58,158 nt of DNA from contig CAMHOE010000012.1 in the NCBI GenBank assembly GCA_946186665.1, positions 1 through 58,158 of the forward strand, written 5' to 3'. The notes below the pieces were generated by a model. That model saw only the letters and a list, made by a program, of their open reading frames with translations. It was not told the origin of the DNA and did no database searches. Made by a program: the position numbers and the translations under genes. The stretch comes from an uncultured Clostridia bacterium. GTDB lineage: Bacteria; Bacillota; Clostridia; Oscillospirales; Acutalibacteraceae. Below, one piece after another: positions 1,037-58,158 of this stretch (positions are counted from its first letter, which is position 1; every line of letters begins with the position of its first letter).

Positions 1037-3751
1037 TCAGTTTTTTTGCCTGTCGTATTCAGCAAGCTTTTCATAGACACGCTTGCAGCAGTTCTTGTCA
1101 CTGAAAGCAAATGTGTCATTTATTCTCTGCAAATACTTATCCTTTGGTTTGCAGCCGTTCTTCATGTATTCTATAAGACAGTTCACAGTTGAGTCCAGAT
1201 CATAGACAACATCACCGAAGCCGTCACGTTCATAGTCAAAATAACCCTCTGTATAAGAATGCTCTCCGCTGAAAAATGCCTGCTTGTCAAACTGAGCATA
1301 TACTATAGGCTTGCGAAGATATGCAAAGTCAAATGCCACAGATGAATAATCCGTAAGCATAAGATCAGACTGGGCAAAGATCTCTCTGTAAGTCTTTGAC
1401 GGTTCAAAGAAATAGACAGACTCATTTTTATCAAAAAGATCAACATACGGTTCAATATTAGGATGCGGCTTATGGCATATGGTATAGCCGTATTCCTCTG
1501 CGGCTTTTATAAGCCTTTCATCATTCAGAAGTGAATTATAGAATTTATAATACCTGCTTTCCTTGAAGTCATCCTTGATGTTCCAGATACCTGTAACAGG
1601 ATCAGGATATGTCATAAGTGACTTACGCCATGTAGGCATTATGGTTATATACTTCTTTTCATCATGATAAAGCAGGTCGTTTCTCGGCATACCTGTCAGC
1701 CACACTCTTTCGGGAGTATAGAAATAATCATAGTTGAATACGGATTCATACTCCTGATTTGTGGAAACTATAAATCCGAACATATTCCTGTTATAAAGGT
1801 TCAGCCATGATGATATATCATCCTTGGTGACGCCATGCTGAAGGAACACAAAACGATTGGCGCAGGTTATGTCACGATAATAGATATTGGCGTTCATGAG
1901 CGGATTTACTACCGGATTATTTCCCTGTGAGGAAATGATATAGGAGCTTCTGAGGTGGTTCATCTTATGCTTGCGTGAACCTGTGGATATGGTCTTTCCC
2001 AGTTTCGATATCCTCTTTCCCTCATCGCTTTCTTTATCTATTACAAAATAGCATTTTACATTTTTATCCTTTACAGTCTGCATATACTTGAAGAAAGCTT
2101 CTCCGTTGTCGTCTCCCTTATTTATACGATCAGAAATGAGCCATATGCTCTTTCTGTAAAAGGGCTTCAACAGAAAATATGCAAGTCTTGCACGAATAGC
2201 ATTTCTAGAATAATCACTATTTATCCTGCGCAGGGAACGCATATATCTCAGCTCCGCCTTTATCCTGTCAAGGCCATATGCTTTTCTTACACAAAGCGCG
2301 GACTTTCTGCCGTCGTAGGTCAGGATATGACCGCCTTTATAGTAATAGCAATATGCCACTCCTGAAGCAAGGGGAGCAAACTTATCAAAACGGATATTCG
2401 TGCGCTTTATCACGTCGTCGTGATTTACGCTGAACAGCTCCACATATATTTCATCCTTGTTTGAGATATCTACATCTATATCAAAGGATATTCCGCTGTA
2501 ATAATTCTCACCCCATACTATAGTATCATAGGGGTGGTGAACATCCTTTGCATATACCCTTTCCTCACCGTTTAAAAGAGCAAAAACATTGAATTCATCT
2601 CTGTTACAGCCGATGTATTTTATTCGTCCGCGTATAGTAAGCGTTGTATCTGTCATGGTAATGAACTCTATCGCCAGAAGATTTGTAGACATGGTGCAGA
2701 GCTTTGTATTACCGAAAAACAGCTTTTTATTATTCGGAGATACTATAAAGCGGGGCGCATTATCGTATTTTATCATGAAGATCATGTACTTATGAACCAT
2801 CATCAGACCGCAGTTGTTTATGACACTATCATCAATATCCATTAAAATGGGTCTCAGATACTTCTTGTATTCCTCAACAGACATGATCACACCGAATATC
2901 TCCTCAGCTGACGGAACTGTAAAAGTCCATCTGAGAAAACGCATGATATTGTATTGCAGATATGTGGGAACAAATCCCAGAGAGCTTTTGAAATCATTTA
3001 ATGTTTTCTGTATGAAGTCATAGAAAAAGCTCTCCAACAGCTCTTTATTGTCACGGAAGTGTTCATATATATCGAAAACATATCCCTCGCCGGAATAGGG
3101 TGTCACGGATACTCCGCCCCGCCTTATAACACGCATTATCTGAGTCTGCTTTACAAGACTGAGAAGCAGCGCACTTTCAAATACCTCCGGTGTCTTCAGT
3201 GAGGTATCCGGCATGATGTCAAGGCTTGTGCTGATAAAGCAGTTTGAAAGGAAAATAAATGGAGTGTCACTTTTTTCGTTGAAGTCAACGAGAGTGTATT
3301 TTCCCTTGAATCCTCCGTTTATCTCAGAAACATTGGAATTGGATGCGCTCCTGCCGCAGAGTATTGTCAGAAGCTTTACCTCTTCATTCCCCGAAGAGTA
3401 TTCTGCACCCACCGCATTTACTACATTTTCGCTGTAGACAGCACCGCATTTTGCAAAGTGCAGCAGCTTTCCCTTTACATACTTCAAAGACTCTTTATAT
3501 GCTGTCTGTTCACAGTCATAGACCTTATCAGATACAACAACAGTGCCGATTTTTTCTTTGAGCCGCATGACATACTCCTCATCAAGCTCAGATTCTCCAC
3601 GCATTATTATAAGCTGTACCTGACTGTTTACCGGCTGCCCTTCGGCATTGGTGACGCTTTGAACAGCAAGACTGTCAGCTGTAAGCTTGTACTGATCATT
3701 GGAAACATAGATCACGACAGATAATAATTTTTTATCAGCACTCTTATCCAT
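1037..3751 (-). CDS. Large CDP-glycerol:poly(glycerophosphate) glycerophosphotransferase-like protein (TagF-like)
   Basis: The 904-residue protein ends in a glycerophosphotransferase domain (roughly residues 530-890) with HKPHPNIEPY, FFEPSKTYREIFAQSDLMLTD and DYSSVAFDFAYLRKPIVY, the nucleotide-binding signature of TagF/TarL enzymes. These polymerise glycerol-phosphate or ribitol-phosphate from CDP-alditols at the inner face of the membrane. The first ~120 residues (LLSVVIYVSNDQYKL...VQLIIMRGES) look like a degenerate GT2 fold, and a beta-rich linker occupies roughly 360-500. It starts one base after the stop of the acyltransferase gene, with AAAGGA inside that gene, so the two are probably translationally coupled. 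CDP-glycerol as donor is inferred from the family; other alditol phosphates are possible. Confidence 0.85.
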   Translation of the reverse strand: MDKSADKKLLSVVIYVSNDQYKLTADSLAVQSVTNAEGQPVNSQVQLIIMRGESELDEEYVMRLKEKIGTVVVSDKVYDCEQTAYKESLKYVKGKLLHFAKCGAVYSENVVNAVGAEYSSGNEEVKLLTILCGRSASNSNVSEINGGFKGKYTLVDFNEKSDTPFIFLSNCFISTSLDIMPDTSLKTPEVFESALLLSLVKQTQIMRVIRRGGVSVTPYSGEGYVFDIYEHFRDNKELLESFFYDFIQKTLNDFKSSLGFVPTYLQYNIMRFLRWTFTVPSAEEIFGVIMSVEEYKKYLRPILMDIDDSVINNCGLMMVHKYMIFMIKYDNAPRFIVSPNNKKLFFGNTKLCTMSTNLLAIEFITMTDTTLTIRGRIKYIGCNRDEFNVFALLNGEERVYAKDVHHPYDTIVWGENYYSGISFDIDVDISNKDEIYVELFSVNHDDVIKRTNIRFDKFAPLASGVAYCYYYKGGHILTYDGRKSALCVRKAYGLDRIKAELRYMRSLRRINSDYSRNAIRARLAYFLLKPFYRKSIWLISDRINKGDDNGEAFFKYMQTVKDKNVKCYFVIDKESDEGKRISKLGKTISTGSRKHKMNHLRSSYIISSQGNNPVVNPLMNANIYYRDITCANRFVFLQHGVTKDDISSWLNLYNRNMFGFIVSTNQEYESVFNYDYFYTPERVWLTGMPRNDLLYHDEKKYITIMPTWRKSLMTYPDPVTGIWNIKDDFKESRYYKFYNSLLNDERLIKAAEEYGYTICHKPHPNIEPYVDLFDKNESVYFFEPSKTYREIFAQSDLMLTDYSSVAFDFAYLRKPIVYAQFDKQAFFSGEHSYTEGYFDYERDGFGDVVYDLDSTVNCLIEYMKNGCKPKDKYLQRINDTFAFSDKNCCKRVYEKLAEYDRQKN

Positions 3752-3752
3752 T

Positions 3753-4934
3753 TTATACTGTCCTTTCCGATAGCCTGTGGGCTATTTTTTTATCGACAAG
3801 ATCAACAAGCTTGTTAAAGCCCGTATATTTTTTCAAAAGCTCTATAACTACTGATATTGCAAGAGAAACTATCAGTACCGCAAGTGTGATAAGTGCAAAG
3901 TGATGGAAGGAATATACAAAGTCTTTCAGCAAATGCTGTCTGATAAAGGTGTGCAGAAGGAAAATATTCATTGAATGCTTTCCCAAAAACATGAGAACCT
4001 GTCTCAGTACAGGTATATCCGTAAGGAACTCGTAACAATAGTAAACAACAAAAACCGGAATGAAATTGTCCGTAAGCTCATACGCCGATTTTGAAAATCC
4101 GTTCTTGTGCAGATATATCCTTGAATATACGAGAAATACAAGCAAGGCTGTGTATATAATAAACTTAATAAACTTAATAAGCTTGCTTAGATACTTATTC
4201 TTTGTAATGGTAAAGCTTTTTGCCTTTGCAAAAACATCGTACTGTGCGCAGACAACGCCAAGCACAACTGCAAAAAACCATCTGGAAATATTGAAGCTGA
4301 CTTCGCCGGTAAGCTGTACTCCGAAGGATACTATTCTCGGCACGAATATACAAAGCAGTATTGTAAGACCTGCTCCGTATTTTTTGGAGAGCTTTGCAAT
4401 AAATGGTACTACAGCGATTATAAATATCGCCAGTGACATATACCACCATGTGCCGTTGAGCGTAGGTGTATTGAATATATATGCAAGTCCGGTCATGTCG
4501 ATAAACATACTGTATATCCCGCTGAAAATATCGTCAGTGAAATATATAGTCATAGGCCGTGACACAGCGATCCACGAAACTATAAAGAATATCGCATATA
4601 TCACCCAGTACCCCATCATCAGCTTGAAAAGCCTGCGGTACAGATAATCCTTATACTGTACACCGTTCAGGGTATTATCACTGCTGTATTTCCTTACGGA
4701 AAAAGCAAGACCGTATCCGCTGAGAAACACATACATTCCAACGCATATTTTCAGGAAGTTTGATAATATGATTACCTTGCTTTGTGAAAACGGAAAGAAC
4801 GACACATCGTATCCTTCAAATCTTTCGAGAGACAGAAAGTTGTGATGCTGTATCATCGCAAGTATAGCCAGACCTTTTATAGCCAGCGTATCATTTTTGC
4901 TGAACTGTACTTTTTTCCTTACATTATCCTTCAT
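3753..4934 (-). CDS. Acyltransferase family 3 membrane protein (OafA/YrhL-like)
   Basis: The protein has 393 residues and about ten hydrophobic segments. It begins with the family's N-terminal pattern, IKGLAILAMIQHHNFLS, in which the HH pair corresponds to the catalytic histidine region of acyltransferase-3 proteins. Later segments include GMYVFLSGYGLAF, NGTWWYMSLAIFII and LGKHSMNIFLLHTFI, all typical. Such enzymes acetylate or otherwise acylate surface polysaccharides. The start at 4934 follows AGAGGATAGTTTT. The gene sits between two polymer synthase genes and is coupled to the downstream one, so a teichoic-acid-like polymer is the likely acceptor. The acyl donor and acceptor cannot be read from sequence. 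Confidence 0.88.
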   Translation of the reverse strand: MKDNVRKKVQFSKNDTLAIKGLAILAMIQHHNFLSLERFEGYDVSFFPFSQSKVIILSNFLKICVGMYVFLSGYGLAFSVRKYSSDNTLNGVQYKDYLYRRLFKLMMGYWVIYAIFFIVSWIAVSRPMTIYFTDDIFSGIYSMFIDMTGLAYIFNTPTLNGTWWYMSLAIFIIAVVPFIAKLSKKYGAGLTILLCIFVPRIVSFGVQLTGEVSFNISRWFFAVVLGVVCAQYDVFAKAKSFTITKNKYLSKLIKFIKFIIYTALLVFLVYSRIYLHKNGFSKSAYELTDNFIPVFVVYYCYEFLTDIPVLRQVLMFLGKHSMNIFLLHTFIRQHLLKDFVYSFHHFALITLAVLIVSLAISVVIELLKKYTGFNKLVDLVDKKIAHRLSERTV

Positions 4935-4956
4935 AAAACTATCCTCTTTGTTTATG

Positions 4957-4999
4957 GAATTCTCTAAAAAACATGAAAGGTATTTTTAGAGATTCCCCT
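4957..4999. repeat. Short inverted repeat resembling fused tips of element B
   Basis: CTCTAAAAA (4962-4970) and TTTTTAGAG (4983-4991) form a 9-bp perfect stem, and CCCCTAT follows. The tips resemble the terminal inverted repeats of element B (36527-36698 and 40394-40566) with the interior lost. It could also act as a weak terminator or attenuator between the fusion gene and the acyltransferase gene. Confidence 0.4.
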
Positions 5000-5067
5000 A
5001 TCTTCATTTCTTTTTTCTGACGTCTGCGGTCGAGGTCATTCATTACATCTCTGCTCTTATTACAACG

Positions 5068-7335
5068 TCATTCATCGATAAAGTCAAGTATCCTTTGGGC
5101 AAGCGCCTGACGTGAATACTTTTCAGATATTATATCGTAATTCTCTTTGAGTGTATCAGAGGATATCTCATCAAGTGCCAAAAGCTTTTCAGTAAGCTCC
5201 TCATGGGTCGTAATAAACGCTGAAGGTATTTTTTCCATTACTTCAAGCGAACCCTCATTTTTCTCGCAGAATACAGGCTTTCCGTTCATTACTCCCTCGA
5301 TATAAGGCATACCAAAGGAATGGTTAAGTGAAAAATCCACAACTGCATCATGCTTGCGTATCTCAGCAGGACCATCCTTAGCTACACCCTTGTAGCAAAT
5401 ATATTCCGTCAGACCCTCTTCTGCAAGCATAGATTTAAACTGGTTTTTATAGTTTCCTTCGCCGTAAACATCTATGACGATACCCTTTACGTTATTGTCA
5501 CGCAGGTAACAGCCGTATTTTATCAGATTGTCAATATCGAGCTTTCTGTCCTCTGAAAGTCTGAGAAGATATATACCTCTATAAACGTCCTTTTTCTCAG
5601 CTGATGTAATATCCTCACGTTCCACGCTTCTGGATGACTCAAGACAATTTCCGAGAACGATGTGTTTTTTATAGTTGTCAAATCCAAACTGCTCGATATA
5701 CTTTTTACGGTTATTCTCAGTAACGAATACCGCTTTTTCAATATCACATTTATTAAGCTCCGGAAGGATACCGGGGAATACCTCTTCAAATATTTCCACC
5801 GGACAATGGAAGAAATATATCTTATTCTTTATCATATCTGACTGTGCCGCATTAAGGAACAAATGCAGGGATTCTCTTGTTGAGATCACCGTGCGGCTCT
5901 TTGTTGTGTTCAATATCTTTGTAAGCTTAAGACCCGAATAGGGCTTGAGGTTAACAATGTCACGGTCATATGTCAGATATGAAAACAGCTTTTTCCTTCT
6001 GTAAAAATGTCTCTTGAAGGTATTTACAATATCAAAATGATTGGCAACATAGGTGTAGTTGAAGCTTAGTCCGCAGGGAGGATTCTGGGGCTTTCTGTTT
6101 CTTTTGAGCGACAAAAGCTCCACCATATAACCCTTCTCCATAAGTCCCTCTGCGAGGGAACGTGTTGCAAATACAGTACCGCCGATACCAAAGAAATTAT
6201 ATCCGATAAAGGTTATCTTGTTGCGCTGTATCCTTGCAAAATCCTCATACATTATGTCAATATGACCGCCACTGAGGATATAGTCAAGGTCGATATTTTC
6301 AGGCAGTCTGCTGCGGAAAAAACGGTTTACGGTGTATGTCTCATTTACGACGGTATTCACAAGCTCATCTGATGTCTTAATGTTGTACTCATTAAGCTCG
6401 TCTATAGTACAGTAAAGCTCTCTGCCCTGAAGATATACATCTATATCCGGCTGATAAAGCACAACCGGCTTTCCGAGAAGAGTAACGTCAAAGCCTACAG
6501 ATGAATAGTCGGTTATAAGAAGACTGCACTCCGCAAGCTGACCCATCACATCTGTGTTCTGGGCGTGAACTATATTTATCCTGTCGGACATTTCTCCCCT
6601 CAGCTGAGGCGGTATAAGCTTTTGCAGCTTTTCTTTATCAAAGAAAGCATGAACGCAAAAAGTAAGCTCGGCATCGTTTTCTTCCAGATAAGTCTTCATC
6701 GCAGGGGAAAGCAGAACATCTCTGAACTGTCTGAAAAGCTCATCTGTCTCAGGGTTATCGCCGAGATATTCACGCCAGGTCGGGAACCATAGTATACGCT
6801 TCCTGTCAGCTTTATATTCCCTGAAGCGTCTTACGGACTCGATGTATCTGGGATGGTACTCACCGTAATACATCTGATAGTCACGAAATCTGTTTTTACT
6901 GATGAAATCATCTTTTATCAGCTTATTGTAGTATACAAAGCGAAACAGGTTATTATTGAAAGATCTGCCGCTGTAGTCTATGACTTTCATAGCCAGAGTG
7001 CCATGCTGAAGATATATAAGCGGCTTATGGATATTAGGCGCGATTTTTTTGCCAAAAAGTCTTTCGGGGCGAATATCACGATAGCTGAGTGTTACAAAAT
7101 ACATATCGGCAGCAAAGAACATTTTCAGATGATGTTCGGTGTTTTTCCATACTATATATTTCTGCTGTGACTCAGGCAGATTTTTATAGAATTCCATATT
7201 CTTTTTGTTCTTTGAAAGAACATAATATTTTTCTATATCATCATCTTTATCTACTATATTTTTCCAGAACCAGTAAGAGTTATTGTTTGCGGTAGTTCCA
7301 AGGTTCTCTCCTATAAGCCAGATGAATTTTGACAT
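5068..7335 (-). CDS. Fusion: CDP-glycerol glycerophosphotransferase domain plus GT4-like glycosyltransferase domain
   Basis: The 755-residue protein has two halves. Residues ~60-370 carry a glycerophosphotransferase domain (YLQHGTLAMKVIDYSGR, WFPTWREYLG, LLITDYSSVGFDVTLLGKPVVLYQPD). Residues ~390-755 are a GT4-like domain: NKITFIGYNFFGIGGTVFATRSLAEGL resembles a GT-B acceptor fold, and RLSEDRKLDIDNLIKYG, DVYGEGNYK and FSLNHSFGMPYIEGVMNGKPVF resemble the donor-binding half. The EX7E-type motif appears loosened (FSLNHSFGMPYIEGV), so activity of this half is uncertain. An open frame extends to GTG 7344, but AAGGAG sits 8 bases before ATG 7335 and overlaps the GTG option, so 7335 is chosen. It may add both a phospho-alditol and a sugar to one polymer. 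Confidence 0.83.
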   Translation of the reverse strand: MSKFIWLIGENLGTTANNNSYWFWKNIVDKDDDIEKYYVLSKNKKNMEFYKNLPESQQKYIVWKNTEHHLKMFFAADMYFVTLSYRDIRPERLFGKKIAPNIHKPLIYLQHGTLAMKVIDYSGRSFNNNLFRFVYYNKLIKDDFISKNRFRDYQMYYGEYHPRYIESVRRFREYKADRKRILWFPTWREYLGDNPETDELFRQFRDVLLSPAMKTYLEENDAELTFCVHAFFDKEKLQKLIPPQLRGEMSDRINIVHAQNTDVMGQLAECSLLITDYSSVGFDVTLLGKPVVLYQPDIDVYLQGRELYCTIDELNEYNIKTSDELVNTVVNETYTVNRFFRSRLPENIDLDYILSGGHIDIMYEDFARIQRNKITFIGYNFFGIGGTVFATRSLAEGLMEKGYMVELLSLKRNRKPQNPPCGLSFNYTYVANHFDIVNTFKRHFYRRKKLFSYLTYDRDIVNLKPYSGLKLTKILNTTKSRTVISTRESLHLFLNAAQSDMIKNKIYFFHCPVEIFEEVFPGILPELNKCDIEKAVFVTENNRKKYIEQFGFDNYKKHIVLGNCLESSRSVEREDITSAEKKDVYRGIYLLRLSEDRKLDIDNLIKYGCYLRDNNVKGIVIDVYGEGNYKNQFKSMLAEEGLTEYICYKGVAKDGPAEIRKHDAVVDFSLNHSFGMPYIEGVMNGKPVFCEKNEGSLEVMEKIPSAFITTHEELTEKLLALDEISSDTLKENYDIISEKYSRQALAQRILDFIDE

Positions 7336-7487: not shown

Positions 7488-8492
7488 TCATTGATTTTTC
7501 TCAAAACCGGACACTTCGGGAACGATGGTCTCAAAGCATTCTGAAATTATTTTTTTCTTCTCCTCGAAATTTTCCGTTCTCGGAGTATCGTTTATACAGA
7601 TAAGCTTATATTTCTGCTGAGTTATTGCATCACACGCCTGTTGAAAATTGCCTTCTTCTATATGGAAAGCTTCACCGGTATTCTTCGGGCGAATAACATA
7701 TCTGCCCTTGCAGAACTGCCAGTACTTCATAAGCCATTGATTGACATTAGCTTCTGTACGGAATTTATCGCTGCACGTTTTATCAAGTACATCATAGTAT
7801 TTTTCCCAGACTTCCTCGAAGGTAGACTTGAGAAAATCCGACGGCAGGTGGTCGTAATAGAAGCCGGGGAACCATTCCCACATACTCAGCATTGCCGTTT
7901 TAACATTTGTCTTGAAGCCGTTTTTACGGCTGTACCATTTCTTGCGGTCACGTCTTTTTATTTCCGCTTTATTCTTGAATTCGGTATTGATGACCTCCAT
8001 ATTGGAGCCATTGAAATGTCCTGCGCTGTCATGTCCGAAGTATATACAATTAAGTCCGAATGTATCACAGGGAAGTCCGTCCCTGAAGAAATCCACAGGC
8101 TTTGTAGGTTTAGTAATAAACATATCGTCATTGAAATACACAAACTGTTCTGACAAGCCTTTTATTCTATGGAGATTAAGCTCTATTGTATGTGAGCTGA
8201 AGGTAGGAAGGTATTTTTCGGGTATATAGTCTGTATGCTTAACGATATTCAGCTTCGGGTTACCGGTATTCAGCCACTTAGGAAGATGTCCCCAGGTAAC
8301 GAAATGAATTTTATTGACCCAAGGCGCAAATTTTTCCACACAGCGGAACCAGTACTGAAGGTTATCCCAATCACGATATCTCACGGGGGTATCGCTGTCC
8401 GCCATTGAAGACGGCGAGTACTCAGCCTTTTCCCTTTGCCAGTCAGGGTCGTTGCCATCTACCCATATAAGCACAAAATCTATTATATCCAC
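7488..8492 (-). CDS. Stealth-family protein (exopolysaccharide sugar-phosphotransferase)
   Basis: All main Stealth conserved regions are visible in 334 residues: CR1 DFVLIWVDGNDPDW near the N-terminus, CR2 RYRDWDNLQYWFR...KIHFVTWGHLPKWLN, CR3 FVYFNDDMFITKP, and a C-terminal region with ICINDT. Stealth proteins are hexose-1-phosphate transferases that make phosphodiester-linked capsule or surface glycans; eukaryotic GlcNAc-1-phosphotransferase is a relative. The start codon is GTG 8492 with GGAG seven bases upstream; an overlapping ATG is out of frame. The promoter at 8556-8584 gives it its own transcript. Its place between CDP-glycerol-type enzymes supports a phosphodiester-rich surface polymer. 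Confidence 0.92.
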   Translation of the reverse strand: MDIIDFVLIWVDGNDPDWQREKAEYSPSSMADSDTPVRYRDWDNLQYWFRCVEKFAPWVNKIHFVTWGHLPKWLNTGNPKLNIVKHTDYIPEKYLPTFSSHTIELNLHRIKGLSEQFVYFNDDMFITKPTKPVDFFRDGLPCDTFGLNCIYFGHDSAGHFNGSNMEVINTEFKNKAEIKRRDRKKWYSRKNGFKTNVKTAMLSMWEWFPGFYYDHLPSDFLKSTFEEVWEKYYDVLDKTCSDKFRTEANVNQWLMKYWQFCKGRYVIRPKNTGEAFHIEEGNFQQACDAITQQKYKLICINDTPRTENFEEKKKIISECFETIVPEVSGFEKNQ

Positions 8493-8555
8493 ATTACCAC
8501 TCCGTTACTGACAGTCACAGACAAAACATCCCTATTTTTCAAAGCATCTCCCACC

Positions 8556-8584
8556 ATTCTACCATACACCCCCAAAAAAGTCAA
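8556..8584 (-). promoter_or_regulatory. Candidate promoter of the Stealth gene, -35 box at the edge of repeat A
   Basis: The minus strand has TTGACT, a 17-base spacer and TAGAAT. The -35 hexamer (8579-8584) overlaps the first bases of the repeat A terminus, whose shared sequence reads GCAGGCTCTGCGCTT toward the gene. The U32 gene has the same arrangement at 23767-23772. Confidence 0.55.
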
Positions 8585-9118
8585 AGCGCAGAGCCTGCGC
8601 TCCCACGTCAATCTAATTCAGACATCAAAATGATACAAAGTTTAATAAGATGTCATTTTGAGCGTTAAGCGAATAATCTTTGAGTGACTTATGCACACTT
8701 TACTATGCCTGTCAGGTTTAATTAATTAGAAAAAACGCACTTTAAGCCCTTTCGGCAAGCTCAAGAAAGAAGGTTGATTCTGAAAAGTAACAAAATAATT
8801 TCCAAATTAGATTGACGTGCCTGCGCTCCCGATTCGCGCCCTCGTTCGCTAAAGCTCACTCTGATATTCCGACCGAAGCTTTTCCTGTCCGCGATTGACG
8901 GCGCAGAATTGCAGGACACTATTCTCCATCCGCCGGCGCAGGCTAAGAGCCTGCTGTTTCGGCTGTTTTATCCGGACATATAGTTTCTTCTCCTGTTCAG
9001 CTTTATGCGCCTGTATAGTATGAAGCTGAAATTTTAATTAAACTTACTATCATTCGTTTTCACTTTAGTGAAAACGCACCGTAACTATTCACTATTCACT
9101 ATTCACTATTCACTTCTT
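8583..9118 (+). repeat. Composite interspersed repeat A-C, copy 1 (interrupted by element E)
   Basis: Ignoring the nested 8604-8819 element, about 320 bases match the 36447-36938 copy in opposite orientation. Part A (8583-8603 and 8820-9048) shares blocks such as CGTTCGCTAAAGCTCACTCT, CTTTTCCTGTCCGCGATTGA and CATCCGCCGGCGCAGGCTAA. Part C (9052-9118) is a CGTTTTCAC/GTGAAAACG hairpin followed by repeats of ACTATTC that run into the stop codon of the next gene. There is no conserved open frame. This spacer of about 600 bases contains no other gene. Confidence 0.85.
8604..8819. mobile_element. Element E: 216-bp non-coding inverted-repeat element with 10-bp target duplication
   Basis: The ends are a perfect 15-bp inverted repeat: CACGTCAATCTAATT at 8604-8618 and AATTAGATTGACGTG at 8805-8819. 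The flanking 10 bases, CCTGCGCTCC, are present once on each side (8594-8603 and 8820-8829). The other repeat A copies have this site once. The interior has no coding frame of note, so it would have to be moved by a transposase supplied elsewhere. A second left end begins at 58104. Confidence 0.85.
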
Positions 9119-10315
9119 CAGTTCTTTTATTGCAAGATAATTTCTTTTGCAGTTTTCTTTATCATACAGGTCAAAAAAGGCTTTGTGCCGGATAAGGTAT
9201 TCTTCCGGTTCTTTGAAAGCTTCTTCGGCGGCTCTTTCAAGCTCGTCAAGTGTATCTTCAAGCTTATAACTTACCTTGCCGAAGCCGTCATTCTCATAGC
9301 TGAAATAACCTTCGGGGTACTGTCCCTTTCGGAAATCTTCGTAATCGAACTGATAGTACATCAGCCTTTTTTTCATATATGCAAAATCCATAGCAATACT
9401 TGAAAAGTCTGTTATCAGATATGCTGACTCCTTAAGGAGAGTCTGGACATCGTACTCCGGCCATTTTGCCGTTATTATCCTGTCCGAACGAATATCAAAG
9501 TAAGGAAGAAAGCTCTGCATATCTCTGTGCGGATAAAAAACAAGGGTCAGATCGTTCTTTTCAAGTATTTCATATAATCGTCCGCTTTGCAGAAAACTGC
9601 TCCACGCTTTGAAATATTCTGTATTGCGGAAGTCCGACACATCCTCTATTTCTTTGGAAGCGGATGTTGGTGTGGCTATCCAGCTGCGCCATGTGGGCAT
9701 CAGCAGTACCTGCTTCGGCTTTACGGTAAACTCGTGAAGTTCATCGAACCTGCAAAGTCCAAGCTTTTGTATCGCACCCTCAGGATATCCGAATTTTTCT
9801 TTCAGGAATTCGTACTCCCTCTGTGTGGAAGTTACAAACATTTTCATTTTTGTGTTCTCATAATGCAGCCATGGCATATCATCCTTTATTATACCATGCT
9901 GAAGGAACACTCTTGTATTTTTTAGTATGCCCTTTACTTCAAGAAAATAGCATACCGCAGCATTTGGCTTGCCGCCCTTTTGTGAGCTTATGTTCACCCT
10001 TGCAGAAAGATACAGCACCCAGTGTCTGAGACTGCCGTATCGTACTGTTTTGCCAAGTGAACTGACCTTCCGGAAATCCGGCGACCTCTTGCTTATGGCA
10101 TAGACTATATCCTGCTCAGGATGATTTTTTGTGATGTAACGAAATAGGTGATATCCATTGTCCCGTGCCTCATTTTTATTATCGCATATGACCCACAGAT
10201 TCCTGCGGAACAACCTATAAACGAGCGATACGGGCAGTGCAATAACAAATAGAAATATATGACCTATATCCCCTATTTTTACTCTTTGCAGCTTTTGAAA
10301 AAATGATTCTTCCAT
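9110..10315 (-). CDS. CDP-glycerol glycerophosphotransferase family protein (TagB/TagF-like)
   Basis: The 401-residue protein is essentially one glycerophosphotransferase domain with an N-terminal hydrophobic segment (IGDIGHIFLFVIALPVSLVYRLF). Family motifs are FLQHGIIKDDMPWLHYEN, LLMPTWRSW, FYPHRDMQSFLPYF and YLITDFSSIAMDFAYMKKRLMYYQFD. The size fits a TagB-type primase or a short TagF. It lies downstream of the TagG-like permease and GT2 genes in the same direction, 65 bases from the permease stop, so it is probably in their operon. Its TGA stop is built from the ACTATTC tail of repeat C, so the final residues KELKK border the repeat. Whether it primes or polymerises cannot be told. Confidence 0.86.
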   Translation of the reverse strand: MEESFFQKLQRVKIGDIGHIFLFVIALPVSLVYRLFRRNLWVICDNKNEARDNGYHLFRYITKNHPEQDIVYAISKRSPDFRKVSSLGKTVRYGSLRHWVLYLSARVNISSQKGGKPNAAVCYFLEVKGILKNTRVFLQHGIIKDDMPWLHYENTKMKMFVTSTQREYEFLKEKFGYPEGAIQKLGLCRFDELHEFTVKPKQVLLMPTWRSWIATPTSASKEIEDVSDFRNTEYFKAWSSFLQSGRLYEILEKNDLTLVFYPHRDMQSFLPYFDIRSDRIITAKWPEYDVQTLLKESAYLITDFSSIAMDFAYMKKRLMYYQFDYEDFRKGQYPEGYFSYENDGFGKVSYKLEDTLDELERAAEEAFKEPEEYLIRHKAFFDLYDKENCKRNYLAIKELKK

Positions 10316-23772: not shown

Positions 23773-23898
23773 GCGCAGAGCCTGCGCTCCGATTCGCGCT
23801 GGCGTTCGTACCCCAAGAGCACTTCCTACGAGCACCCCAGCGAAAACGTACCACTTTTATTCATTCTTAAGTTTTAAGTTTTAAGTTTTCAGTATTCA
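23771..23898 (+). repeat. Composite repeat A-C, partial copy 3
   Basis: The first ~38 bases match the start of repeat A (AAGCGCAGAGCCTGCGCTCC then GATTCGCG). They pass into a C-type core (GTACCCCAAG, GCACTTCCTACGAGCACC, GCGAAAACG) and a tail with TAAGTTT repeated in place of ACTATTC. The middle of A is absent. The copy ends just before the terminator of the feo operon. Confidence 0.7.
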
Positions 23899-36446: not shown

Positions 36447-36938
36447 GAAATAGTGAATAGTGAGGAGTTAGGAGTGCGTTTTCGTACCCCAAGGGCACTT
36501 CCTACGGGCGCACGGCGAAAACGAATTATAGGGAACCTCTAAAAACCTCCTTCACGGACATTTTGCTGTGAATTTTCCCGCATACTGCGTTGTCAAGCCT
36601 TTTAATACACAGAGTATTAATGCGGCTTTCCGCCTTGTCTGCGAAAAAATTCACGGACGCAAACTGTCTCGTGTCCCGGTTTTTAGAGAACCCCTATAGT
36701 AAGTGTAATAAAAAACTATAGCTTTATACTGTACAGGCGCATGAAGTTATGGAGGGAAAGGAACTGTATATCCGGATTAAACAGCCGAAACAGCAGGCTT
36801 TAGCCTGCGCCGGCGGATGGGAAATAATATCTGACAAGTCTGTGCCGTCAATCGCGGACAGGAAAAGTTTCGGTCATACTATCAGAGTGAGCTTTAGCGA
36901 ACGTCAACGCGAATCGGGTGCGCAGGCTCTGCGCTTAT
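36447..36938 (-). repeat. Composite interspersed repeat A-C, copy 2 (interrupted by element B)
   Basis: On the minus strand, part A runs 36938 to 36699 and part C runs 36526 to 36447, matching copy 1 at 8583-9118 in order. Element B (36527-36698) separates them. The C hairpin is CGTTTTCG (36477-36484) with CGAAAACG (36516-36523); its tail GAATAGTGAGGAGTTAGGAG lies 40-70 bases past the kinase stop. The A terminus runs into the EamA gene. The whole 36408-36903 spacer is repeat DNA and contains no gene; short frames in it are not conserved between copies. Confidence 0.85.
36527..36698. mobile_element. Element B copy 1: ~172-bp MITE-like element at a TA site
   Basis: The ends are imperfect inverted repeats: GGGAACCTCTAAAAACC near 36531 and GGTTTTTAGAGAACCCC up to 36694, each bounded by TATA. 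It interrupts composite repeat A-C between ACTTAC and ATTCG, where copy 1 reads ACTTACTATCATTCG. The gain of a TA fits a Tc1/mariner- or IS630-type target duplication. The interior has an imperfect palindrome (AATACACAGAGTATT) and no gene. Confidence 0.78.
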
Positions 36939-57521: not shown

Positions 57522-57794
57522 TTATTCATAGTGCGTCCACATGGATATTATCTTAACGGTTTTTTCTTCTTCATATACCATGTAGACAAGTCTGTGCTGC
57601 CTGTTGAGTCTCCTTGAATAACACATACTCAGGCTGCCTGCCAGTTTTTCATAAGGCGGAGGATTTTGAAACGGGTCATTCCTTAAAAGTTCTATAAGGT
57701 TCTCGGCATTTCGCCTGAGCGCAGGATACTGCTTTATTTTATCTTTATCCTTATCAGCCGCTTTTGTTATCACAATTCTGTACTCACCATTCAA
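57522..57794 (-). CDS. yoeB: YoeB/Txe-family ribosome-dependent mRNA interferase toxin
   Basis: The core is YRIVITKAADKDKDKIKQYP, then LIELLRNDPFQNPPPYEKLAGSLSMCYSRRLNRQHRLVYMVYEEEKTVKIISMWTHYE, a complete YoeB/Txe protein: NPPPYEKL, YSRRLNRQHRLVY and the C-terminal W-H-Y are diagnostic. YoeB cuts mRNA in the ribosomal A site. The frame extends to 57830 inside the antitoxin gene; a TTG at 57794, which overlaps the antitoxin stop, gives a normal 90-residue length, but a GTG at 57803 is also possible. It is coupled to the antitoxin gene. Confidence 0.9.
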   Translation of the reverse strand: MNGEYRIVITKAADKDKDKIKQYPALRRNAENLIELLRNDPFQNPPPYEKLAGSLSMCYSRRLNRQHRLVYMVYEEEKTVKIISMWTHYE

Positions 57795-58023
57795 AGTCCT
57801 CACACTCCTCAATAGGAGTCTGTACTCCATCCGATATTTTTTCCTTCATCCCGGGAACAGATGTCAGATAAAGAGTTTCCATCAGGCTGTTATACTCTTC
57901 CTCGCTGATAAGAACTGCATTTCCGCTTTTTGTGCTGATATTGACAGGCTCATTGTATTTGACCGTCTGCTCTATCATTTCAAAAAGCTTTTTCCTGAAA
58001 TTAGTAGCATTTGTATTGATCAT
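57784..58023 (-). CDS. yefM: YefM/Phd-family antitoxin
   Basis: The 79-residue protein reads TNATNFRKKLFEMIEQTVKYNEPVNISTKSGNAVLISEEEYNSLMETLYLTSVPGM, the Phd/YefM DNA-binding fold, followed by an acidic tail (EECEDFEW) that wraps the toxin. It neutralises YoeB and represses the operon. GGAGGG precedes ATG 58023. The stop overlaps the toxin gene. Confidence 0.93.
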   Translation of the reverse strand: MINTNATNFRKKLFEMIEQTVKYNEPVNISTKSGNAVLISEEEYNSLMETLYLTSVPGMKEKISDGVQTPIEECEDFEW

Positions 58024-58050: not shown

Positions 58051-58084
58051 TGTACATTATAGCGTACAGGTAAATATATGTCAA
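58051..58084 (-). promoter_or_regulatory. Consensus yefM-yoeB promoter with TGTACA operator
   Basis: On the minus strand TTGACA, a 17-base spacer and TATAAT are all perfect. TGTACA (58051-58056) and GTACA form a short inverted repeat over the -10 box. TGTACA is the known core of YefM operators in other bacteria. Confidence 0.75.
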
Positions 58085-58103: not shown

Positions 58104-58158
58104 CACGTCAATCTAAATCTGCAATAAATCTGTAACCGAAATTACAGCAATAAAATTG
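58104..58158. mobile_element. Element E, second copy, cut by right window edge
   Basis: CACGTCAATCTAA at 58104-58116 matches the terminal inverted repeat of the 8604-8819 element. Only one end and about 55 bases are visible, so the copy cannot be confirmed as complete. A different origin of the matching 13 bases is possible. Confidence 0.5.

Follow-up and report, generated by a model that had tools for sequence, protein, structure and literature searches.

What decides where a mobile element that carries no gene comes to rest in a bacterial genome? The question is raised by a short inverted-repeat element in the window, by which we mean the whole 58,158-nucleotide stretch of DNA that was analysed. 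The initial annotation had described perfect 15-bp terminal inverted repeats (TIRs), a duplication of CCTGCGCTCC on both flanks, and nesting of the element in a larger repeat. The TIRs and the duplication are both in place, and CCTGCGCTCC occurs three times in the window against an expectation of 0.06. The parts of the locus are as follows.

8604..8819, + strand: miniature inverted-repeat element (MITE), 216 bp, too short for a transposase gene, recurring genome-wide
8604..8618, + strand: left TIR, CACGTCAATCTAATT, 15 bp
8805..8819, - strand: right TIR, perfect copy of the left TIR, 15 bp
8594..8603: target-site duplication (TSD), 10 bp, CCTGCGCTCC, copy proximal to the promoter
8820..8829: TSD, 10 bp, CCTGCGCTCC, copy distal to the promoter
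8820..9030, + strand: part of the dispersed host repeat that holds the MITE, with at least 53 matching places in its own genome

A dispersed MITE and its probable partner insertion sequence

A search of the window's own genome (Ruminococcus, 2.55 Mb in 101 contigs) with 8604-8819 returned 24 full-length copies, the window copy included, and two more cut by contig ends. Counting the window copy itself, 19 of the 24 show no mismatch to it and five show one. Exact TSDs of 10 bp flank 20 of the full copies and TSDs of 9 bp flank three, while a single copy (L018) has none. The element is below 500 bp, is bounded by TIRs, lacks a transposase gene and is dispersed in copies with TSDs; like other bacterial MITEs, it has many near-identical copies and partner IS ends in the same genome. 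The earlier description of a gene-less, dispersed, non-autonomous element is thus borne out by 24 full copies, and the genome search that it called for gave multiple copies with the same ends and duplications of 9-10 bp in 23 of 24. Because the copies are near-identical and the duplications exact, they point to recent mobility. The copy without a TSD has strong predicted promoters on both sides (19 and 20 bp), and is likely the product of recombination between two MITE copies or insertions, or of an assembly mis-join.

In the GTDB collection, the MITE is carried by the uncultured Ruminococcus MAGs RUG10944 (five places) and RUG10851 (two places). Its DNA strand folds with a z-score of -2.5, the TIR pair forming the outer stem. 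A 31-base stretch of the MITE has no exact match in viral contigs, and 8300-9300 has no match in Rfam. The interior (8653-8690) contains GTCATTTTGAGCGTTAAGCGAATAATCTT, presumably akin to a short repeat that is widespread among other bacteria; in genome G024, it reads GTCATTCTGAGCG...

A second end at 58104 had been taken to suggest a dispersed family. The family is indeed dispersed, but this end, CACGTCAATCTAAAT (one mismatch), leads into an insertion sequence (IS) of the ISAs1 family and not into another MITE.

58104..58158, + strand: right end of an autonomous ISAs1-family IS, truncated where the contig stops, with the same interior as the right end in genome G050 that is joined to a transposase gene
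58079..58084, - strand: -35 box TTGACA, 19 bp from the IS end at 58104, consensus match
58056..58061, - strand: -10 box TATAAT of the same IS-end promoter, consensus match
57784..58023, - strand: Phd/YefM-type antitoxin gene downstream of the IS-end promoter, Pfam PF02604, E 2e-12
57522..57830, - strand: YoeB-like partner gene of the antitoxin, Pfam PF06769, E 1e-10

A YoeB/YefM-type toxin-antitoxin pair (57522-58023) therefore lies directly downstream of the promoter where the IS landed. In G050, of the same genus, a right end of the same kind (L057) adjoins an open reading frame of 324 aa or more, so that the transposase family with matching ends, which the initial annotation had left to be found, is ISAs1. 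This frame (324 aa) scores 239 bits against the ISAs1 transposase model NF033564 (cut-off 70, E 6e-71), and matches PF01609/PF13808 (DDE_Tnp_1 and its associated domain) in Pfam; the NCBIfam IS1634 model is also matched, below its cut-off. In G037 and G041, the IS left ends are followed by a promoter-like stretch, a ribosome-binding site and a start codon, and by eye a similar stretch precedes the transposase frame in G033 (L100).

In the own genome, IS right ends stand at the ends of contigs C12, C45 and C36 and left ends at those of C67 and C58, their interiors unassembled. Identical 10-bp TSDs pair C58 with C45 and C67 with C36 across contig gaps, and the genome probably holds two IS copies with unassembled interiors. 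Only two decayed transposase fragments were found there, in C41, and the IS transposase was read from relatives. MITE and IS ends have 14 of 15 terminal bases in common, as well as TGNNAC at positions 28-33 by eye. TSDs of the ISAs1 family range from 8 to 10 bp, and the two own IS copies, with 10 bp as in type ISAs1, fall within that range; further family likeness is seen in ends that begin with CA. The window element is probably a MITE of an ISAs1-family IS, which, judging from the common ends, would mobilise it in trans. At another locus (L046), a CRISPR array (about 3400-5125) with the repeat GGATCACCCCCGCATGTGCGGGGAAAAG has a decayed IS right end (5331-5384) some 200 bases away.

A predicted promoter at a fixed distance

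Beside the window copy, a predicted promoter faces away from the MITE. Here and throughout, promoters are consensus matches.

8585..8593, - strand: 9-bp gap between TSD and -35 box
8579..8584, - strand: -35 box TTGACT, target promoter of the window MITE, consensus match
8556..8561, - strand: -10 box TAGAAT of that promoter, 17-bp spacing, consensus match
7488..8492, - strand: Stealth-family gene downstream of that predicted promoter, Pfam Stealth_CR2, E 5e-46

Read outwards from the MITE, most copies present on one side the TSD, 9 bp, and then TTGACA-N17-TATAAT. Promoters were scored as matches to TTGACA and TATAAT (of 12) at a spacing of 16-18, and at least 9/12 was counted as a hit. A -35/-10 pair of this quality stands 18-20 bp from one MITE end in 21 of the 26 copies, and one of at least 10/12 in 17 of 26. 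Sorted by offset, hits fall at 19 bp in 19 flanks, at 18 bp in four and at 20 bp in two, with a mean of 0.15 per offset elsewhere. MITE flanks read at shifted offsets yielded a mean of 0.3 of 26 at 9/12 or better and none at 10/12 or better; random window positions yielded 2.0% and 0.3%, and noncoding window positions 2.4%, giving a binomial P of about 6e-30 for 21 of 26.

The offset follows the length of the duplication. Among the 20 promoter-bearing full copies, a 10-bp TSD goes with 19 bp in 16/17 and a 9-bp TSD with 18 bp in 2/2 (a tie at L012 was set to 19 by hand), and the gap between TSD and -35 box is 9 bp in 18 of the 19 scored TSD-bearing copies. In a promoter-anchored alignment of 22 promoter-bearing copies, built on the best-scoring box within 17-20 bp (the unbiased figure being the offset count of 21/26), the TSD columns hold 0.03-0.29 bits, and the first two T of the -35 box and the first T of the -10 box reach 2.0 bits. 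The duplicated bases are without consensus, whereas the promoter boxes have one. In 15 of 21 cases it is the 5' end of the MITE that faces the promoter, in 6 of 21 the 3' end.

Five of the 26 copies remain below 9/12. The scores are 8 for L002 and 7 for both L001 and L020; at L007 and L017, an element of a second family separates the MITE from the presumed promoter; L017 has a promoter beyond that element at 18 bp. In the sister genomes G023 and G024, four of seven MITE copies fit, one at 16 bp; the other three are L089, which reaches 8/12, and L085 and L087.

The partner IS obeys the rule in a polar way. A promoter of at least 9/12 stands at 17-19 bp from 13 of 15 right-type ends (L028, assigned by eye, and 12 of the 14 that a script assigned; not L054 or L068), and at 18-20 bp from none of seven left-type ends, although L062 has one at 24 bp. 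Two further IS ends (L051, L076), with only three interior bases visible, both have a promoter at 19 bp. The TSD of L051 pairs it with the right end L068, so that in this one IS it would be the left end that faces a predicted promoter.

A second mobile family, with ends CACGGAAATCAA[TG]TTTC, comprises a 163-bp MITE and IS ends (L120-L130). Where its ends do not abut the MITE of the window type, the right ones have a promoter at 18 bp in four of five cases (L120, L123, L124 and L126; not L125) and the left ones in none of four (L121, L128, L129, L130). At L001, L007, L010 and L017, a second-family (CACGGAAATCAA) element adjoins the MITE, separated from it by one TSD of 9-10 bp. The order at L017 is MITE, TGCCGCCTG, second element, TGCCGCCTG, nine bases, and TTGATT-N16-TATAAT, with TGCCGCCTG again beyond the MITE, making three occurrences; such a stack is what two insertions measured from one promoter would give. 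An ISAs1 element with CACGGAAATCAA ends on plasmid pRUMAL01 of R. albus 7 (L162) is flanked by a TSD of 9 bp, with a promoter at 18 bp.

ISAs1 copies were also surveyed in other genomes, with ends defined by inverted repeats and TSD, blind to promoters; clostridial copies were called well-defined when at least 14 of 16 end positions match. Eight of ten such clostridial copies (L101, L104, L106, L107, L115, L161, L162 and L168; not L103 or L105) come with a promoter at 18-20 bp that scores 9/12 or more, including all four that bear a TSD (L104, L115, L162, L168). Each of the eight has its promoter on the 3' side of the transposase gene. The matches of L106, L107, L161 and L168 are on the minus strand, L101 combines TTGACA with a poor -10 box (9/12), and L106, L107 and L115 have near-identical transposases in different sites. 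Two less well-defined clostridial copies, L114 (TIR 12/16) and L167 (11/16), stand outside the ten, and neither has a promoter. Of 16 unique sites with a 10-bp TSD in Proteobacteria, on a Nostoc plasmid and in a Rheinheimera phage, none has a promoter of 9/12 or better at 18-20 bp (0/16), and two reach 8/12; seven of the 16 are type ISAs1 or its near kin ISAeme2. L164, L179, L191 and L201, which have no TSD, are outside the 16, and none has a promoter. Duplicate sites flagged by script (L185, L187, L192, L196, L202, L211) were counted once, and L186, L188, L189 and L193 are the sites of L181, L165, L183 and L163 in opposite orientation. Rows without TIR (L102, L166, L169, L197, L199) were dropped; L170-L175, L177, L182 and L184 are partial or without convincing ends, as are L112 and L113.

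On a tree of 25 transposases, in which the promoter-less L103 and L105 are among six unlabelled rows and L164 and L179 are labelled non-targeting though without TSD, the targeting rows fall in four lineages. Two changes of the targeting label are needed on this tree; a single change suffices in 45% of bootstrap trees, so that a single origin of targeting remains compatible with the data. The contrast between Clostridia and the others may come partly from a promoter consensus that differs between phyla. The consensus should hold in Aeromonas and Enterobacterales, both of which are among the negatives. In a genome-wide IS survey, ISAs1 is reported as over-represented between convergent genes (PMC9208149), which argues that promoter targeting is not family-wide.

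What serves as the ruler

The host repeat around the window MITE is about 210 bp long and is also found in the 23771 and 36720-36926 regions of the window; of the 168 first-look candidates behind the count of at least 53, 40 were scored. By eye, its first 15 bases or so vary among copies and are often still self-complementary (GCGCAGAGCCTGCGC, GCGGCAAGCTGCCGC, GCGCAAGGCTTGCGC), as a kept hairpin would look. Its two other copies in the window had been proposed as empty-site controls. That at 23781-23790 does hold CCTGCGCTCC once, but the 36938 copy reads CCTGCGCACC, with one mismatch, and both are paralogous, not orthologous. Window 8330-8603 is matched in 43 of the 64 genus genomes, the own genome included, and outside the own genome the matches listed end by base 181 of 274; among those matches, no other genus genome reaches the insertion point at 8603. 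For 16 of the 26 MITE copies, the larger repeat can be detected no more than 250 bp away; the nesting in it appears to be a by-product, the target being a predicted sigma70-type promoter rather than the repeat. The repeat itself was considered as a promoter-anchored element and dropped, since its distances to promoters vary.

Three rival readings are improbable. If the GC-rich terminal hairpin of the host repeat were the target, promoters would be near only through the placement of the repeat, as its presence beside those 16 copies might suggest. However, the predicted promoter is kept at 18-20 bp by 13 of the 16 copies with a detectable repeat and by eight of the ten without one (among these ten, L009, L018 and L026 have short GC-rich stretches, maybe remnants, and the flanks of L010 and L026 are shortened by contig ends). 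Additionally, the repeats lie 24, 25, 28, 29, 44 and 59 bp from promoters or have none (17 of 30 loci with a usable motif, three of the 17 holding the MITE itself; 13 of 30 excluded from the tally), and IS copies in other species obey the promoter rule. With its own promoter distance varying and the repeat-less copies keeping the rule, the host repeat is not the ruler, and we consider the hairpin a most improbable target. We give equally little credence to near-random insertion followed by selection that purged harmful copies and spared those upstream of promoters. Reading frames are rarely interrupted, as this would predict, a frame of at least 120 aa spanning the joined flanks in only three of 24 copies (L003, 344 aa; L012, 191 aa; L014, 130 aa). 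An intergenic bias could arise in this way, but not the one-base window described above (19 flanks at 19 bp), nor an offset that tracks TSD length, albeit on small numbers for 9 bp; precision to one base means that purifying selection cannot be the cause. The host might also keep the element for its own regulation, as part of a promoter or as an insulator, in which case it would be no parasite; in either orientation, it does stand directly upstream of many promoters (15/21 and 6/21). Yet the near-identical copies, exact TSDs, matching IS and the same use of both orientations fit a recent burst of transposition, and a regulatory role of this kind seems scarcely more probable than the two readings before it.

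The fixed distance, the TSDs without consensus, the polarity and the stacking together argue that the promoter is the ruler. Very probably, then, the clostridial ISAs1-type transposase inserts MITE and IS at promoters so that 9 bp separate the TSD from the -35 box downstream, with the MITE moved in trans. In the scheme that we propose from these sequence patterns, the ISAs1-family IS that shares the MITE ends would supply the transposase, which would cut the target such that a duplication of 9-10 bp, of whatever bases, stops 9 bp short of the -35 hexamer, on the upstream side of a sigma70/sigmaA-type promoter. The new element would land just outside the core promoter, leaving it intact. This would put the duplicated bases at about -45 to -54, the region of alpha-CTD/UP-element contacts. 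The transposase would be positioned by contact with promoter-bound RNA polymerase holoenzyme rather than by reading the boxes in naked DNA.

Direct reading of the promoter boxes by the transposase, without RNA polymerase, is possible though less probable. Both boxes are conserved at fixed spacing, and the sequence data fit this reading as they fit the other. A transposase of about 360-400 aa would, however, have to recognise a target of some 60 bp besides its own ends, and with targeting elements in four lineages of the tree, a host complex would be the simpler common ruler; the 0/16 for non-clostridial copies with a 10-bp TSD could suit either view. In line with what was proposed for TnGBS by analogy with Ty3 (PMC3942029), we favour bound polymerase over the DNA boxes. 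More broadly, we lean, with some reserve, towards the view that RNA polymerase bound at promoters is the ruler for clostridial ISAs1 transposases across several deep lineages, as a prokaryotic parallel to Ty3, which aims at the polymerase III machinery, that this arose apart from TnGBS/ISLre2, and that it is exploited by tandem-stacking MITEs.

Known promoter-targeting systems and the meaning of the finding

Fixed-distance promoter targeting has a precedent in the Mutator-type TnGBS/ISLre2/ISKra4 group (p-MULT 3 and 4), which, according to PMC3942029, inserts at a fixed distance upstream of the sigmaA -35 box, at 15-17 bp in TnGBS and related ISs. The same source states that p-MULT 3 elements turn their right end towards the promoter, that near-perfect inverted repeats go with both orientations, and that RNA polymerase was proposed as the ruler for TnGBS by analogy with Ty3. 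The likeness lies in the fixed distance upstream of a sigmaA -35 box, 18-19 bp here and, in that account, about 16 bp from the right end there. The relation between repeat symmetry and orientation is likewise the same, with a MITE of perfect ends in both orientations and a polar IS matching the published families (PMC3942029). In contrast, the transposase here is unrelated (ISAs1, DDE_Tnp_1) and is not of the Mutator type that defines p-MULT, and here a gene-less MITE obeys the rule too. Within the ISAs1 family, type ISAs1 of Aeromonas is 1212 bp long and the clostridial relatives with defined ends 1147-1409 bp; type ISAs1 and the other proteobacterial and cyanobacterial copies, without the promoter at 18-20 bp, have ends in CAGGG as against CACGTC here.

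According to a review (PMC10969869), prokaryotic MITEs are normally intergenic, often in AT-rich DNA; the part of the text covered gives no base-exact placement of a MITE relative to a promoter. In the open-licence literature, no report of promoter targeting by the ISAs1 family or by a MITE was found among the titles and abstract openings of the matches listed. What is new, as far as the available part of the earlier work extends, is fixed-distance targeting of sigmaA promoters in the ISAs1 family and by a MITE, already known for the Mutator-type TnGBS/ISLre2/ISKra4.

Base-precise promoter targeting is thereby extended to a second, unrelated transposase family, and is seen to scale to two dozen MITE copies per genome. 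It becomes testable how a small DDE transposase locates a transcription complex, and whether the RNA polymerase ruler was adopted twice. Such targeting would explain how these elements multiply in compact genomes without breaking genes, and for uncultured bacteria, the insertions may mark promoters within the genome itself.
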